The notes under the pieces: model-generated
Database searches by the model: none
What the model was told of the DNA's origin: nothing
The model's input: only the letters and a program-made list of their open reading frames with translations
In this document: one piece after another, positions 2,402 through 13,329 of the stretch
Layout of the letters: each line of letters starts with the position of its first letter
How positions within the stretch are numbered: position 1 is the first letter of the stretch
From: Bacteroidales bacterium
Lineage (GTDB): Bacteria > Bacteroidota > Bacteroidia > Bacteroidales > Muribaculaceae
Assembly (NCBI GenBank): GCA_014800535.1
Contig: JAAVFW010000003.1
Span: 5,724 to 69,723 of the forward strand
Direction of reading: 5' to 3'
DNA length: 64,000 bases
Translations under genes and position numbers: made by a program

Positions 2402-3673
2402 ATGAAAGATAAGAAAGTTCTGGTTGTCGGAAGTGGCGGACGCTGCCACGCAATCGTCGACGCCCTTTCTCGCTCACCGCAGGTTGCAGAGATTTTCTGC
2501 GCTCCGGGCAATGCCGGAATAGCCGGGAAAGCAACGTGTGTGCCTGTTGCAGTGACCGACATCGAGGGTTTGGTCAGCTTCGCCAAAGAAAAGGGAATCG
2601 ACCTGACAGTTGTCGGACCGGAGGCTTCCCTAGTCGGAGGGATTGCCGACCGTTTCACTCAGGAGGGGCTGACGATATTCGGGCCTGACCGCTCGGCGGC
2701 TCGCATTGAGAGCAGCAAGGAGTTTGCCAAGCAACTGATGATGCGTCACTCAATCCCTACGGGTGCCTATAAGGTGTTCGACCGCTTTGAGGAAGCCCGC
2801 GACTATGTGTTGGCTAACCCACTTCCTGCCGTAATCAAATACGACGGTCTGGCTGCCGGCAAAGGTGTCGTCGTGGCTCAGAGTTACGACGAAGCTGAAC
2901 AGGCTCTGCGCGACATGCTTCTCGGCGAGTGTTTCGGTAAGGGACGCGTGATTGTCGAGGAATTCCTTGCCGGACCTGAGTTTTCGTTCATGTGTGCAGT
3001 GTCAGGTGATAAAGTCTATCCCCTGGCAATCGCTCAGGACCATAAACGCGCTTTCGACGGCGACAAAGGACCCAACACCGGAGGAATGGGTGCCTACTCC
3101 CCGGTTCCGTTTGTAACAGATGAAATCAGAGAGCGTGCGCTCAACGAGATTATCATCCCCACTGCTAAAGCTCTCGTTGCCGAAGGGGCGCCGTTCAAGG
3201 GTCTGCTTTACGGAGGTCTGATTCTGACTGAGGATGGACCGAAGGTCATAGAGTTTAACGCTCGTTTCGGCGACCCTGAGACTGAGGTTGTGCTTCCACG
3301 CCTAAAGAGTGACATCTACGAATTGTTTGAGAATGTGGCTCTCTCAACCGGCAAAGAGCTCGACCTTGAATGGAGCGACGAAACCGTGCTTGGAATTGTG
3401 CTTGCTGCCGAAGGGTATCCCGGCTCCTACACCAAGGGAATCGTTATCGAAGGCGCAGGCTCCGACTGCGACTCCGACAACAGTTTTGTGTATCAGATGG
3501 GAACATCTCTGAATGACGGCAAACTCGTGAGCGCAGGAGGCAGAGTGCTGATGGCAATCGGTGTCGGAAATGATGTCGCGACTGCCCGCCGGGCTGCAGA
3601 AGAGAGAATCGGCAGAATCAAGGCTGACGGCATGTTCCATCGCACCGACATCGGAAAAGCAGCGATTAAATAA
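2402..3673 (+). CDS. purD: Phosphoribosylamine-glycine ligase (GAR synthetase)
   Basis: PurD is an ATP-grasp ligase that joins glycine to phosphoribosylamine, making GAR for PurN. I start it at the ATG at 2402 (MKDKKVLVVGSGGR), 13 bases after purH; an upstream in-frame start would overlap purH by about 75 bases and add unrelated residues. That gives 423 residues, normal length. Seen motifs include GGRCHAIVDAL at the N-terminus, PAVIKYDGLAAGKGV, NTGGMGAYSPVP and FNARFGDPETEVVLPRL in the ATP-grasp domain. The usual GGREHA is GGRCHA here, a Glu-to-Cys change next to the phosphate-binding loop; its effect is unknown. Confidence 0.95.
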   Translation: MKDKKVLVVGSGGRCHAIVDALSRSPQVAEIFCAPGNAGIAGKATCVPVAVTDIEGLVSFAKEKGIDLTVVGPEASLVGGIADRFTQEGLTIFGPDRSAARIESSKEFAKQLMMRHSIPTGAYKVFDRFEEARDYVLANPLPAVIKYDGLAAGKGVVVAQSYDEAEQALRDMLLGECFGKGRVIVEEFLAGPEFSFMCAVSGDKVYPLAIAQDHKRAFDGDKGPNTGGMGAYSPVPFVTDEIRERALNEIIIPTAKALVAEGAPFKGLLYGGLILTEDGPKVIEFNARFGDPETEVVLPRLKSDIYELFENVALSTGKELDLEWSDETVLGIVLAAEGYPGSYTKGIVIEGAGSDCDSDNSFVYQMGTSLNDGKLVSAGGRVLMAIGVGNDVATARRAAEERIGRIKADGMFHRTDIGKAAIK

Positions 3674-8708: not shown

Positions 8709-10244
8709 ATGGAAAAAATATTAATATATGATTTCGGAAGTCAGTACACTCAGCTTATCGCACGCCGTGTGAGAGAATTGAATGTGTATTGCGAAATACT
8801 TCCTTACAAGCGCATCGCGGAGTTTGATTCTGCCGACGACTCTGTCAAAGGAATCATCCTCTCCGGAAGCCCGTTCTCCGTGCGCGACCCGCAGGCTCCG
8901 AAACCTGATTTATCTGCCATCAAATCGAAACTCCCCCTTCTCGGTGTCTGCTACGGCGCACAGTTACTTGCTTCCGAGTTTGGAGGAGAAGTGCATGGCG
9001 CTCCCAGCCGCGAATATGGCAGAGCGATGCTGACAGTGGTCGACCCTGATGACGCGCTGATGAGCAACCTCCCCTCGCCGACACAGGTCTGGATGAGCCA
9101 CGGCGACACCATCACCTCTGTGCCTGACACCTACAAAATCATTGCAAGCACCGACAATGTGCGTGTGGCTGCTTACCACATTGAGAACGAACAGACCTGG
9201 GGAATCCAGTTCCACCCCGAGGTTTATCATTCAACCGACGGGTTGCAGCTCCTCTCAAACTTCGTAATCGGAATATGCGGTTGCAAGGGCGACTGGAGCC
9301 CTGCCTCTTTTATCGAAACAACAGTCGAGGGATTGAAAGAGAAACTTGGCGACGACAAGGTGATTCTCGGACTCTCCGGAGGCGTTGACTCGTCTGTGGC
9401 TGCCGTGTTGCTTCACCGTGCAATCGGCGATCGCCTTCACTGCATATTTGTCAATAACGGTCTGCTTCGTAAAAACGAATTTGAAGATGTGCTCGAGTCT
9501 TACAGAGACCTCGGACTCAATGTGCGCGGTGTTGACGCATCCGAAAGATTCTATGCCGATCTGGCAGGTGTGACCGACCCAGAACAGAAACGTAAGGTCA
9601 TCGGCAGAGACTTTGTTGAAGTCTTCAACGATGAAGCAATGAAGATTGACGGGGCAAGATGGCTTGCACAAGGCACAATCTATCCTGATGTTATCGAAAG
9701 TGTGTCGGTCAACGGACCGTCGGCCACCATCAAGAGCCACCACAACGTGGGAGGTCTGCCCGAAAAGATGAACCTGAAGATTGTCGAACCTCTTCGACTT
9801 CTCTTCAAGGATGAAGTGCGCAGAGTTGGCAAAGAGCTCGGCATGAAGCCTGAACTTCTCGGACGTCACCCCTTCCCCGGCCCCGGACTCGGAATCCGTA
9901 TTCTGGGTGAAGTGACAGCTGAAAAAGTCAGAATACTGCAGGAAGCCGACAAAATCTTCATCGACGGACTTCGCGAAGCCGGACTCTACGACAAAGTATG
10001 GCAGGCCGGAGTGATACTTCTCCCTGTTCAGAGTGTCGGAGTGATGGGCGACGAAAGAACCTACGAGAGCTGCGCTGCCCTTCGTGCAGTCATCTCGACC
10101 GACGGTATGACAGCCGACTGGGTTCACCTCCCCTACGAATTCCTTGCCAACATCAGCAATGAAATCATCAATAAAGTCAGAGGAATCAACCGCGTAGTCT
10201 ACGACATCAGCTCCAAACCACCGGCAACCATCGAGTGGGAATAA
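8709..10244 (+). CDS. guaA: GMP synthase (glutamine-hydrolysing)
   Basis: GuaA aminates XMP to GMP. The 511-residue protein has a class I glutamine amidotransferase domain with Cys81 (LLGVCYGAQ), His169 and Glu171 (QFHPEV). An ATP pyrophosphatase domain carries the P-loop SGGVDS at 223-228, and a C-terminal dimerisation domain ends [10 protein letters not shown]. The final nine codons and stop are duplicated exactly 576 bases downstream. This matches the use of the guaA 3' end as an integration site by mobile elements; the copy kept here leaves GuaA intact. Confidence 0.97.
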
Positions 10245-10260
10245 CCTTTGATTATCTATA
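10215..10260 (+). repeat. Left copy of 46-bp direct repeat at the guaA 3' end (att-like)
   Basis: The 46 bases begin with AAACCACCGGCAACCATCGA and end with TTATCTATA. They comprise the last nine guaA codons, the stop and 16 bases downstream, and are identical to 10791-10836. Flanking bases differ on both sides, so the repeat edges are sharp. This is the pattern left by site-specific integration that restores the target gene. The guaA 3' end is a known integration site for several genomic islands; that this is such a site is an inference. Confidence 0.85.
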
Positions 10261-10278
10261 TTAAGCAATCACCTAATA

Positions 10279-10320
10279 TACAATCGTCTATACTTCCAGT
10301 TGGAAGTATAGACGATTGTA
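10279..10320. repeat. Perfect 20-bp inverted repeat with 2-base centre
   Basis: TACAATCGTCTATACTTCCA at 10279-10298 is followed by GT and then its exact reverse complement at 10301-10320. It lies 19 bases inside the left att-like repeat. It could terminate guaA transcription, since an AT-rich stretch follows, or act as a protein-binding or processing site of the element. Twenty matched pairs are far beyond chance for this length. Confidence 0.8.
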
Positions 10321-10468
10321 ATTCTTAATATCGCGTATAAGTATCACAATTTTTTGAGCAGCCTTGCCAATCTTAAATGAAAGAGTCATGGTTCATTGGA
10401 AACTTTGTTTGCCAGTTGAACCTGCGGGGAAACCTTTGAACTAAAATACACTTTTTTTCGTTATAATT

Positions 10469-10499
10469 TTGTAGATTGCAAAAAAAGGTTATACCTTTG
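10469..10499 (+). promoter_or_regulatory. Bacteroidetes-type promoter inside the mini-element
   Basis: TTG at 10469-10471 is separated by exactly 20 bases from TACCTTTG at 10492-10499, which fits the -33/-7 consensus of Bacteroidetes sigma-ABfr promoters. Transcription would begin near 10505 and run through the alternative hairpins toward the short ORF and, potentially, the restriction gene. Confidence 0.65.
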
Positions 10500-10504
10500 C
10501 AGTT

Positions 10505-10713
10505 GAAAAATATCCTGTCGTGACTGAACGGCTACGTGAAAAGTGCGTAGCTCACAAGTGTAGGTTACGCAGGACTATTTTTTGCCCTTTTGGTTCGTGT
10601 AAGATTGCGCGTGTGATGCTTTGGCTTGAAGCTCCAATGTCCATATTAACACTCATATAGTGGTTAACCGTAAAATGAGACAATATATCAGGATATTAAA
10701 GAAATTTAAATAA
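10505..10713 (+). ncRNA. Candidate structured leader with 12-codon ORF
   Basis: Downstream of the promoter, CTACG (10532-10536) can pair with CGTAG (10546-10550). The overlapping GCGTA (10545-10549) can instead pair with TACGC (10566-10570), which is followed by six Ts at 10578-10583. The two hairpins share bases and exclude each other, as in an attenuator. Further on, ATG at 10675 opens MRQYIRILKKFK and a stop at 10713. No known riboswitch or leader was recognised, and the 3' end is undefined. Confidence 0.4.
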
Positions 10714-10790
10714 TTAACGCCTCAATTTTATTAGTACAATCAAACTCTTGTAATTAACTGAGTGTCCGATTATTAAATGGTATAACTATA

Positions 10791-10836
10791 AAACCACCGG
10801 CAACCATCGAGTGGGAATAACCTTTGATTATCTATA
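10791..10836 (+). repeat. Right copy of 46-bp direct repeat (att-like)
   Basis: This is an exact copy of 10215-10260, including the guaA stop codon context but detached from any guaA reading frame. To its right lies the restriction-modification pair. I looked for a third copy after the methyltransferase gene and found none before yqeY. Confidence 0.85.
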
Positions 10837-10849
10837 CTTACCATCTTAA

Positions 10850-10894
10850 AATCAGTCGACTTTGTATTTTTATTAATCATAAAGTTGACTGATT
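10850..10894. repeat. 14-bp inverted repeat upstream of the restriction gene
   Basis: AATCAGTCGACTTT at 10850-10863 pairs with AAAGTTGACTGATT at 10881-10894 with one G-T pair and a 17-base loop. It lies 13 bases past the right att-like copy and about 35 bases upstream of the promoter of the restriction gene. It could be a terminator isolating the R-M operon or a controller-protein operator; no controller gene is present. Confidence 0.5.
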
Positions 10895-10927
10895 CCATTT
10901 TATAAATGGTGGATTTACAGTCTAAAA

Positions 10928-10958
10928 TTGTAACCTCGAATTTTTTTGACTAATTTTG
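10928..10958 (+). promoter_or_regulatory. Promoter of the restriction-modification operon
   Basis: TTG at 10928-10930 and TAATTTTG at 10951-10958 are separated by 20 bases, the canonical Bacteroidetes spacing. The predicted start near 10964 leaves a leader of about 20 bases before the ATG at 10985. The element therefore carries a promoter suited to its current host phylum. Confidence 0.7.
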
Positions 10959-10984
10959 CGTTATATCATTTATCATTGTAAATT

Positions 10985-11818
10985 ATGGCCAAGAAAAACC
11001 AATCGAAAAGACTCACTCATCAACATAAAAACTCTCACGGTGTCGTTGGGATATTTGGGAAAGAAGCGAAACTGCACGACATGACAGTAGGTCAAGTTTC
11101 GCATTTGGTTTTATCTCAATTACAAACTGATTTCCCAACTCTGTCTTTTCGATATAGAGATAACATTCGTAAGGATGAAATTAATTTGGCACTTCAAAAA
11201 GTGGACAAAGACTTAGGACAAACACTATTTGTACCTAACTCCAGCATTATTCCTGATGGTGGAATTATAGAAGTTAAAGATGACAATGATGACTGGCGCG
11301 TCATTTTGGTTTCTGAAGCTAAGCATCAAGGAAAAGATATAGAGAATATACGGGCAGGGAAATTAGTTGGTAAAAATAATGACCAAGATTTAATGGCAGC
11401 CGGAAACGCTATTGAGAGGTCTCACAAAAATATTTCAGAAATTGCAAACTTTATGCTTGGTGAATCTCACTTTCCGTATGTTCTTTTCCTTGAAGGCTCA
11501 AATTTTCTTACGGAAACAATTCGTATTACACGACCTGATGGAAAAGAAGTAATACTTGAATATAATTCTGGTATGCTGAATAGACTTGATCGCTTAACAG
11601 CAGCCAACTATGGATTGCCTATAAATACAAATTTATGCAAAAATAAATTCGTTCACCATAAGGGCAAAACTATTATGCTCCAAGCTGCCTCCATTTATAC
11701 TCAAGGTAATGGTGCAAGATGGAAAACAGAACAGATGTTTAACATTATGATGGAAATAGCCAAGACGTCCATACAGGTTCTGTATAGCGATTTATTCTAT
11801 CAAGTCCAAAATAAATAA
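10985..11818 (+). CDS. ecoRIR: EcoRI-type type II restriction endonuclease
   Basis: The 277-residue protein has the same length as EcoRI and aligns with the EcoRI sequence I remember, without gaps, across most of its length. The catalytic residues fall on EcoRI numbering: Asp91 (IIPDGG), Glu111 and Lys113 (SEAKHQG). The sequence-reading segment AAGNAIERSHKN keeps Asn141, Ala142, Glu144 and Arg145, and Arg200 and Arg203 are in MLNRLDRLTAANYG. These residues predict recognition of GAATTC and probably cleavage after G. It precedes its methyltransferase by 13 bases. The gene is much more AT-rich than guaA or yqeY, which supports horizontal acquisition. The specificity is inferred from residue identity, not tested. 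Confidence 0.95.
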   Translation: MAKKNQSKRLTHQHKNSHGVVGIFGKEAKLHDMTVGQVSHLVLSQLQTDFPTLSFRYRDNIRKDEINLALQKVDKDLGQTLFVPNSSIIPDGGIIEVKDDNDDWRVILVSEAKHQGKDIENIRAGKLVGKNNDQDLMAAGNAIERSHKNISEIANFMLGESHFPYVLFLEGSNFLTETIRITRPDGKEVILEYNSGMLNRLDRLTAANYGLPINTNLCKNKFVHHKGKTIMLQAASIYTQGNGARWKTEQMFNIMMEIAKTSIQVLYSDLFYQVQNK

Positions 11819-11831
11819 AGTTTCTTTGTGT

Positions 11832-12827
11832 ATGGCTCGAAAAGCAACTAATAACATTCTACATAGGGCAAAAAGCTCAAAAAGTGATGAGTTTTACACA
11901 TTGCTTGAAGATATAGAGAAGGAACTTGCCTATTATAAAGACTGTTTTCGCGAAAAAACAGTCTATTGTAATTGTGATAATCCAAAGGAAAGTAATTTCT
12001 TCAAATATTTTTTTAAAAACTTTAAAACTTTAGGTTTAAAGAAACTCATCGCCTCGTACTACTTACCTTGCACTCAAGACCTTTTTTCTGAAAAAAAAAC
12101 AGAGCATGGAGGTTATATAGAATTCACGTTGGATGATATTGATTTTGATATCTCAGACTTACACTGTAAACAGTTCAATGGCGATGGTGACTTCAGAAGT
12201 CAAGAATGTATATCATTGTTGAAGCAGGCTGATATTATTGTAACTAATCCACCATTTTCACTCTTCAGGGAACATATAGCTCAAATAATACGTTACAAAA
12301 AAGATTTCCTTGTTATTGGCAATATTAATGCCATTACTTATCAAGAAGTCTTTCACCTAATTCAATCTAATAAAGCTTGGTTAGGTGTACATCTTGGGAG
12401 AGGAATATCGGGGTTCAAAGTGCCCGACCATTATGAAATGTATGGAACTGAAACTCACATTTCCGGAAATGGCGATAGAATAATCTCTCCGAATAATTGT
12501 CTTTGGCTAACGAATTTAGACATTCAAAAAAGACATAACCTATTGAAGTTGACTCAAGTTTACAGAGGAAATGAGGATTTATATCCTAAATTTGATAATT
12601 ATAATGGCATTAATGTCAATAAAACTCAAGATATACCAATGGATTATGAAGGTGCTATTGGTGTACCTATTACATTCTTGCACAAATACAACCCCTCTCA
12701 ATTTGAAATCATTCGATTTAGAAAAGGTGATGATGGTAAGGACCTTTCAATTAATGGGAAATGTCCTTATTTCCGAATCTTGATAAAAAATAGGCAACCT
12801 ATCAAAGCATCCGGGAGAGCCGGATGA
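11832..12827 (+). CDS. ecoRIM: EcoRI-type adenine-N6 DNA methyltransferase
   Basis: This protein closely matches M.EcoRI: MARKATN, AKSSKSDEFYT (residues 13-23), GDGDFRSQECISLLKQAD, the catalytic NPPF at 139-142, LGVHLGRGISGFKVPDHYE and the ending LSINGKCPYFRILIKN. It would methylate the adenine of GAATTC and protect the host from the adjacent endonuclease. I start at ATG 11832, matching the M.EcoRI N-terminus; an upstream TTG at 11826 is less likely. The last ten residues (QPIKASGRAG) differ from M.EcoRI and are encoded by GC-richer DNA, so the C-terminal tail may come from flanking DNA. The gene itself contains a GAATTC site at 12120. Confidence 0.94.
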   Translation: MARKATNNILHRAKSSKSDEFYTLLEDIEKELAYYKDCFREKTVYCNCDNPKESNFFKYFFKNFKTLGLKKLIASYYLPCTQDLFSEKKTEHGGYIEFTLDDIDFDISDLHCKQFNGDGDFRSQECISLLKQADIIVTNPPFSLFREHIAQIIRYKKDFLVIGNINAITYQEVFHLIQSNKAWLGVHLGRGISGFKVPDHYEMYGTETHISGNGDRIISPNNCLWLTNLDIQKRHNLLKLTQVYRGNEDLYPKFDNYNGINVNKTQDIPMDYEGAIGVPITFLHKYNPSQFEIIRFRKGDDGKDLSINGKCPYFRILIKNRQPIKASGRAG

Positions 12828-12879
12828 GGGATGGGCTGTTAAAAAATAGAAACTGTAATTTCAAAAATATATAAAACTT

Positions 12880-13329
12880 ATGGATTTATTTGATCAGATA
12901 AGTGAAGACATCAAGAAAGCAATGCTTGCCCGCGAAAAAGTAAGACTTGAAGCTCTGCGCGGAGTCAAGAAAGAATTTCTTGAAGCTAAAACAGCTAAAG
13001 GTGCCAATGGTGAACTCTCTGACGAGACTGCCACCAAGATTATGGTAAAAATGGTTAAACAGCGTAAGGAAAGTGCTCAGATTTACGCTGACAACAACCG
13101 TCCCGAACTTGCCGAAAACGAACTTGCTGAAGCTGCTGTGATTGAAGAATATCTTCCCAAACAGATGACGGCTGAAGAGTTGGAGGCAGAGTTAAAGGCA
13201 ATCATCTCGGAGACAGGCGCAACAAGCATGAAGGAGATGGGAAAAGTCATGGGAATTGCCTCAAAACGTCTTGCAGGACGCGCTGAGGGTAAGGCTATCA
13301 ACGCTAAGGTGAAAGAACTCCTGAGCTGA
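12880..13329 (+). CDS. yqeY: GatB/YqeY domain protein
   Basis: The 149-residue protein is a stand-alone YqeY-type domain, related to the tail domain of the amidotransferase subunit GatB. Typical features are the helical N-terminal half, MVKQRKESAQIYADNNRPELAENELAEAAVIEEYLPKQ and the C-terminal MGKVMGIASKRLAGRAEGKAIN. YqeY proteins are thought to have a tRNA-related role, but the function is not settled. It lies just right of the R-M unit and may originally have followed guaA. A strong hairpin terminator follows. Confidence 0.92.
   Translation: MDLFDQISEDIKKAMLAREKVRLEALRGVKKEFLEAKTAKGANGELSDETATKIMVKMVKQRKESAQIYADNNRPELAENELAEAAVIEEYLPKQMTAEELEAELKAIISETGATSMKEMGKVMGIASKRLAGRAEGKAINAKVKELLS

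Follow-up and report, generated by a model that had tools for sequence, protein, structure and literature searches.

In the Bacteroidales genome studied here (G000), an EcoRI-type restriction-modification (R-M) pair lies beside the 3' end of guaA in the window, that is, the whole stretch of 64,000 nucleotides analysed, and in relatives such pairs form short units without an integrase at the same gene end. These are probably non-autonomous, guaA-specific integrative units that carry a GAATTC system and are movable by an integrase acting in trans. A wider proposal is put forward tentatively and may well prove too broad: that minimal units of 2.2-2.5 kb, with one R-M system each, use the integrases of larger elements and cross genera into the guaA 3' end, and that five or more types of restriction system, among them EcoRI, do so.

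The EcoRI pair by itself is ordinary: such systems are known across many phyla, including a Bacteroidales chromosome. The new part is the guaA-docked R-M unit without an integrase, which varies the known theme of remnant or satellite elements flanked by att sites. Literature searches on EcoRI-like systems, guaA elements and R-M units, of which titles and opening lines of at most 10-20 papers each were covered, brought up no report of such a unit at guaA in Bacteroidales. The earlier note on this DNA overlooked both that 46 bp at the guaA end are repeated and that the position beside guaA recurs. An EcoRI-like system is already in print for the chromosome of Prevotella intermedia (Bacteroidales), where methylation was undetected according to the available text of PMC5608340, and the available text of PMC5896346 gives a REBASE tally of 526 putative EcoRI-like proteins.

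The features of the window locus are as follows.

8709..10244, forward strand: guaA (GMP synthase), intact, with the repeated core ATCGAGTGGGAATAA within its last codons
10215..10260, forward strand: 46-bp exact direct repeat, copy 1 (final 30 bp of guaA including the stop, plus 16 bp)
10261..10790, no strand: 530-bp insert in which no ORF of at least 60 aa is listed, with a palindrome inside
10791..10836, forward strand: 46-bp repeat, copy 2, with the spacing to R that the guaA end bordering R-M has in relatives
10850..10894, forward strand: stem-loop preceding R, with seven units aligned
10928..10958, forward strand: match to the Bacteroidota promoter consensus, TTG-N20-TAATTTTG
10985..11818, forward strand: EcoRI-type restriction endonuclease R, 277 aa (phmmer, Pfam, residue alignment)
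11832..12827, forward strand: EcoRI-type adenine methyltransferase M, 331 aa (Pfam, alignment with relatives)
12808..12879, no strand: right junction, in which the right-hand core is missing and which runs into yqeY (12880-13329)

The EcoRI-type pair and its relatives

The R frame runs from an ATG at 10985 to a stop at 11818, and both the R and M frames are open from end to end. R matched the EcoRI chains 1ckq and 2oxv of the PDB (phmmer, E 6e-129 and 9e-129) and Pfam PF02963 over the entire 257 positions of the model (482 bits), and M matched the EcoRI methylase family PF13651 (418.9 bits), confirming the earlier note's identification of a complete EcoRI-type pair in a chromosome. NCBIfam assigned neither protein to a family, and M had no sequence match among solved PDB structures up to an E value of 1. 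The GC content of the pair is 34.7% vs 47.1% for the window, with 3.4% of equal-length stretches being that low. As judged from these matches, the pair is an EcoRI-type type II R-M system and a further member of a known family.

The length of 277 aa had been said to equal that of EcoRI, and the alignment with the plasmid-encoded R of E. coli (locus L098) is indeed free of gaps, with 200 of the 277 residues identical (72%). The catalytic and contact residues proposed to sit at EcoRI positions also held up: among 19 compared positions (catalytic, contact or neighbouring), 18 are identical to the plasmid R with numbering preserved (D59, D91, E111, K113, Q115, 137-145, E192, G196, R200 and R203), and the sole mismatch is K89, which is I in the window R and in 52 of 100 aligned R sequences. 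D91, E111 and K113 are assumed here to be catalytic, and 137-145, R200 and R203 to serve in recognition. The listed M ORF begins with a TTG at 11826, and the ATG at 11832 is the start that aligns with relatives; with this start the gap between R and M is 13 bases, so that the gap and the R-M gene order noticed before both stand. The last six residues of the window M are ASGRAG, and in the relatives compared by eye the tail is longer and ends in SLFA.

The endonuclease would cut GAATTC and the adenine methylase would protect it; for this specificity, residue identity argues well and the depletion of GAATTC in the window genome argues weakly. Palindromes were counted under a maximal-order Markov model in samples of 224 kb (G000), 160 kb (G215) and 200 kb (G057). 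GAATTC was seen 35 times vs 68 expected in G000 (z -5.3, rank 7 of 59 palindromes, six of which had a lower z), was undepleted in G215 (56 vs 56.5 expected, 0.99) and weakly depleted in G057 (30 vs 38 expected, 0.79). Four EcoRI carriers of the genus group, guaA-linked or not, showed lower GAATTC density among 81 genomes (p 0.003) and a lower GAATTC/CTTAAG ratio (p 0.007), where the p values ignore GC and kinship and 20 of the other 77 genomes were not EcoRI-tested. Both enzymes would be active, and the system may serve a selfish or a phage-defence role; R-M systems are often considered selfish mobile units.

Two further observations were made in these counts. In G139, where EcoRI was not found, the GAATTC/CTTAAG ratio was 0.52, the second lowest of the 81 genomes. 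The palindrome CATATG was nearly missing in the G000 stretches (window, L125-L132; 0.02 of expectation), and the samples of G057, G170, G010 and G401 likewise showed a strong depletion of it.

EcoRI-type R genes are scattered rather than common in the family and phylum. The homologue search in the family that the earlier note had proposed gave 14 positives among 397 genomes with the EcoRI family model, and 3 of 395 phylum genomes exceeded the cut-off, the window's own genome being one of the three. The R protein was matched by 19 of 72,556 plasmid records, and in a one-genome-per-species search an R relative was encoded in 97 of 126 candidate stretches. The best 80 of these 97 loci were kept for comparison; 42 of them are Bacteroidota by title and the remaining ones belong to Patescibacteria, Bacillota, Proteobacteria and others, a composition obtained with search patterns derived from the window R protein, which therefore favour near relatives. 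Endonucleases 65-70% identical, with no EcoRI-type methylase detected in the locus, were observed in L065-L068, L072-L075, L078 and L080, and their partner methylase may perhaps be of another class.

Of 98 R proteins placed in a midpoint-rooted tree (L002 and L003 omitted as duplicates), those of the nine guaA-linked carriers described below, window included, form one group (support 90/86, unstarred). The plasmid EcoRI of E. coli and Klebsiella falls in a separate clade (95/95) that has 49 rows, 26 from Bacteroidota, with two gammaproteobacterial MAGs and one Bacteroidetes MAG as its neighbours. Membership of the window R-M in the E. coli plasmid lineage was excluded by this placement in a different clade, and the suggested exchange with the classic plasmid system was overstated. 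The spread over phyla that had been proposed is plain in the tree; its direction is absent from it, because the root is a midpoint. EcoRI/M.EcoRI of E. coli plasmids and isoschizomers such as LraI (available text of PMC5896346) are alike to the window pair in the ungapped R, the R-M order and PF13651, whereas the window pair differs in being chromosomal, guaA-adjacent and in its own tree group.

The guaA end in the window and in relatives

In the window, the second 46-bp copy lies 576 bp beyond the first and R begins 148 bases after it. The insert between the copies contains a perfect palindrome of two 20-bp arms (10279-10320), and an Rfam scan of 10200-11000 returned nothing above the gathering score. 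Either a unit that lost its content or a duplicated guaA end may lie behind it. As a side observation, this insert, flanked on both sides by the exact repeat, is AT-rich (34% GC). The stem-loop that follows copy 2, read by eye, is terminator-like as judged from its position after the guaA end. A match to the consensus that we take to be the Bacteroidota promoter occurs within 120 nt before R in six of the nine guaA-linked units and in 1.1% of 5000 stretches of 120 nt drawn at random from the window, and the R-M unit seems to carry its own predicted promoter.

On the right side, yqeY begins 52 bases after M. A right core was looked for after the window cargo and none was found, and yqeY was beside guaA, R-M or other window neighbours in none of the 20 relatives listed. 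The window copy is damaged on this side, with an altered M tail and a lost right end; because of this loss it is probably immobile even if the unit type is mobile. The left side is real and not an assembly artefact, since the order guaA-R-M recurs in eight other genomes. The window would be a damaged copy whose left side stands 576 bp from guaA behind the second repeat. The junction of methylase tail and yqeY (12808-12880) was unlike that of the relatives examined, and represents either a true rearrangement or an assembly join.

Among the 14 EcoRI carriers of the family, R-M adjoins guaA in nine, namely the window genome, G396, G057, G210, G215, G170, G101, G376 and G380; in the stretches examined of G010, G035, G165, G056 and G317, no guaA was found beside R. 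The left core at the guaA 3' end is present in the guaA-linked units, window included. A diverged copy of the ATCGAGTGGGAATAA core about 190 bp past M closes the unit in four of the nine genomes, giving units of 2207 bp (G057), 2202 bp (G215), 2212 bp (G170) and 2207 bp (G376); a right core was not seen in the window, G210, G101, G380 and G396 (where the contig is short). R and M were the only ORFs of at least 75 aa in the units of G057, G215 and G170, and the content of the G376 unit was judged from its length and tblastn only. Integrase or mobilization genes of their own, the mark of an IME or ICE, were not found in the two-ended EcoRI units. Two of these four units (G170 and G376) have a broken R. 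Other genes lie beyond the right core, and in G057 a second, tandem unit of 493 bp carries a helix-turn-helix gene. In G396 (L164), the EcoRI pair is separated from the following chromosomal gene by a gene (2625-3230) that resembles, by eye, a phage-type DNA methyltransferase.

The second core was evaluated on 103 guaA 3' flanks, 96 of them picked on guaA alone (some shortened by contig ends) and seven from EcoRI carriers. Within 3 kb of guaA, an exact second core occurred 5 times on the forward and 0 times on the reverse strand, and with at most one mismatch at 8 sites in seven genomes vs 1 on the reverse strand; three of these seven genomes (G054, G002 and G397) came from the 96. The core at two mismatches was discarded as evidence (8 vs 6 reverse within 3 kb; 22 vs 14 overall).

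In relatives the unit would be specific for the guaA 3' end with R-M as sole cargo, in the order guaA stop, stem-loop, promoter, R, M, right end of about 50 bp and 15-bp core copy, and the core copy at the unit end would leave guaA intact.

Other cargo and integrase elements at guaA

The same gene end is occupied by other cargo in further genomes of the family.

G054: C5 methylase and NgoBV-type endonuclease, 2,439 bp, both ends
G228: HindVP-type endonuclease and C5 methylase, 2,401 bp, both ends
G120: N6/N4 methylase and a 379-aa protein without Pfam identity, 2,488 bp, both ends
G119: HindIII-type endonuclease and N6/N4 methylase, contig stops before the right core
G329: XamI-type endonuclease and the start of a methylase, contig ends
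G397: Schlafen/AlbA_2 protein, 1.67 kb
G002: no ORF of 90 aa, 537 bp
Elements with a tyrosine recombinase: G014 (8.15 kb), G244 (11.9 kb), G290 (12.0 kb), G271 (13.0 kb), G102 (15.7 kb)
Elements with a tyrosine recombinase, right end not seen: G031, G099

Units with two ends, a non-EcoRI R-M system and no integrase are thus those of G054, G228 and G120 (2401-2488 bp). In seven genomes one of the first two genes past guaA encodes a tyrosine recombinase, confirmed by Pfam for G031 and G014. The full-size elements of 8-16 kb were found at loci L330 (G014), L334 (G244), L337 (G290), L339 (G271) and L255/L307 (G102), and all except that of G014 have a protein resembling, by eye, the serine resolvase of G031.

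G031, G102, G054, G119 and G002 have a left end of about 170 bp in common, with 145 of 180 positions identical between G102 and G054. The 15 pair scores of the left-end set ranged from 49 to 203 vs an average of 17.6 for 5,550 other pairs, among which some related genomes equal or exceed the set, up to 390. The left-end motif was detected in 12 of the 397 family genomes (reversed control 0), directly after the guaA end in all 11 looked at (G166 left out). This left end was absent from the EcoRI units compared. Their right-end motif was present in five of the 397 genomes at six places (reversed control 1); matching right ends are those of the G014 element and G038. Right ends of units measure about 50 bp. 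Against G057a, G057b and G215, the score of the G014 right end was reached in 0.0005, 0.0000 and 0.0015 of 2000 shuffles, and the match to G376, G170 and G228 was weak or none (p 0.35, 0.075 and 0.05); the G376 right end matches those of G038 and G057. From these ends, the R-M units can be read as non-autonomous members of two guaA element families. The two cores of a unit, which has no integrase of its own, would then be recombined by a tyrosine recombinase encoded in a full-size guaA element, for instance that of G014.

Probable movement between genera and competing explanations

Compared with G057, G210, G215, G101 and G170, the window has an R identity of 85-89% and a guaA identity of 69-70%; for G057, which belongs to another genus, the values are 89% and 70%. 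The R+M distance is 0.18 between G000 and G057 and 0.19 between G000 and G376 of the same genus, whereas the guaA distances of these pairs are 0.87 and 0.20. Since R+M distances are equal across and within the genus while those of guaA are not, the comparison favours transfer from genus to genus, each time into the same site. Other protein pairs between the sampled genomes were of no use as a yardstick, at only 5-9 pairs each. Some forks of the R-only tree are starred against genus groupings; tree conflict was dropped as formal proof of transfer, the AU tests on R+M being non-significant (genus groupings not rejected, p 0.147 and 0.099). In G030 and G100 the gene right after guaA is the one that in G396 follows R-M plus about 0.7 kb. 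Filled and empty sites differ by 1.9 kb between G002 and G070 and by 2.9 kb between G215 and G090, the latter pair not being clean, as G090 also has other sequence. Beyond the observed structure, site and shared ends, movement of the unit in trans is what we infer.

The strongest competitor, which we hold to be rather unlikely, is that the R-M units are remnants (CIMEs), i.e., guaA elements that lost the integrase and were kept by R-M addiction, and were not transferred in the short form. Tandem accretion, and CIMEs that have kept their att sites, are documented in the available text of PMC5704250. Five of the nine units have no right core, two of the two-ended ones have a broken R, and the 576-bp repeat of the window and the 537-bp unit of G002 resemble debris. 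In addition, a search of the nine guaA-linked EcoRI genomes for both integrase types gave no close copy, only matches of 28-34% in G057 and G376; this also weighs against mobilization in trans, though seven of the nine genomes are less than 90% complete. Against remnants stand the near-equal size (2202-2212 bp) and R-M-only content of four EcoRI units in three genus groups, the three other two-ended R-M types of similar length, and an R that is closer than guaA between genera. The units are like CIMEs in being att-flanked, free of an integrase and in tandem with other units, and differ from them by near-constant size, a single kind of cargo across genera and ends that in part of the units match integrase elements.

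An old vertical linkage, in which guaA-R-M arose once in the ancestor of these genera and was mostly lost, is considerably less probable. The single R group and the AU tests, which leave the genus clades unrejected, agree with it, but the R+M and guaA distances given above, the restriction of guaA-linked carriers to nine of 397 genomes, and the G396 neighbour directly past guaA in G030 and G100 oppose it. That an ordinary chromosomal EcoRI homologue came to lie near guaA and the 46-bp repeat by chance is scarcely credible: EcoRI-type systems do occur in many contexts and five of the 14 carriers are off guaA in the stretches examined, but nine are beside guaA, the core distance is fixed in four, ends are shared and several R-M types use one site. 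These counts already contradict chance, short of an identical error in nine assemblies.

Some known systems come close to these units. Song et al. 2012 is said to concern genomic islands at the guaA 3' end. The guaA genomic islands and IMEs (GIsul2, ATE-1 and the IncP island; available text of PMC5704250) use the same gene end and have a tyrosine recombinase in their full-size forms, whereas the R-M units, 2.2-2.5 kb long, encode neither an integrase nor any transfer function. The Listeria immigration control region (available text of PMC10059834) likewise holds varied R-M systems at one chromosomal site, and the guaA site differs from it by repeated cores and end-matched integrase elements.

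The EcoRI of E. coli plasmids appears here as a single branch of a family spanning many phyla. To our knowledge, the way in which a bare R-M pair crosses species has seldom been seen, and R-M movement becomes directly testable with these short units, whose ends and site are defined and for which there are candidate helper integrases. If the proposal is true, the guaA 3' end in gut Bacteroidales would be a dock at which restriction systems of five or more kinds are exchanged.
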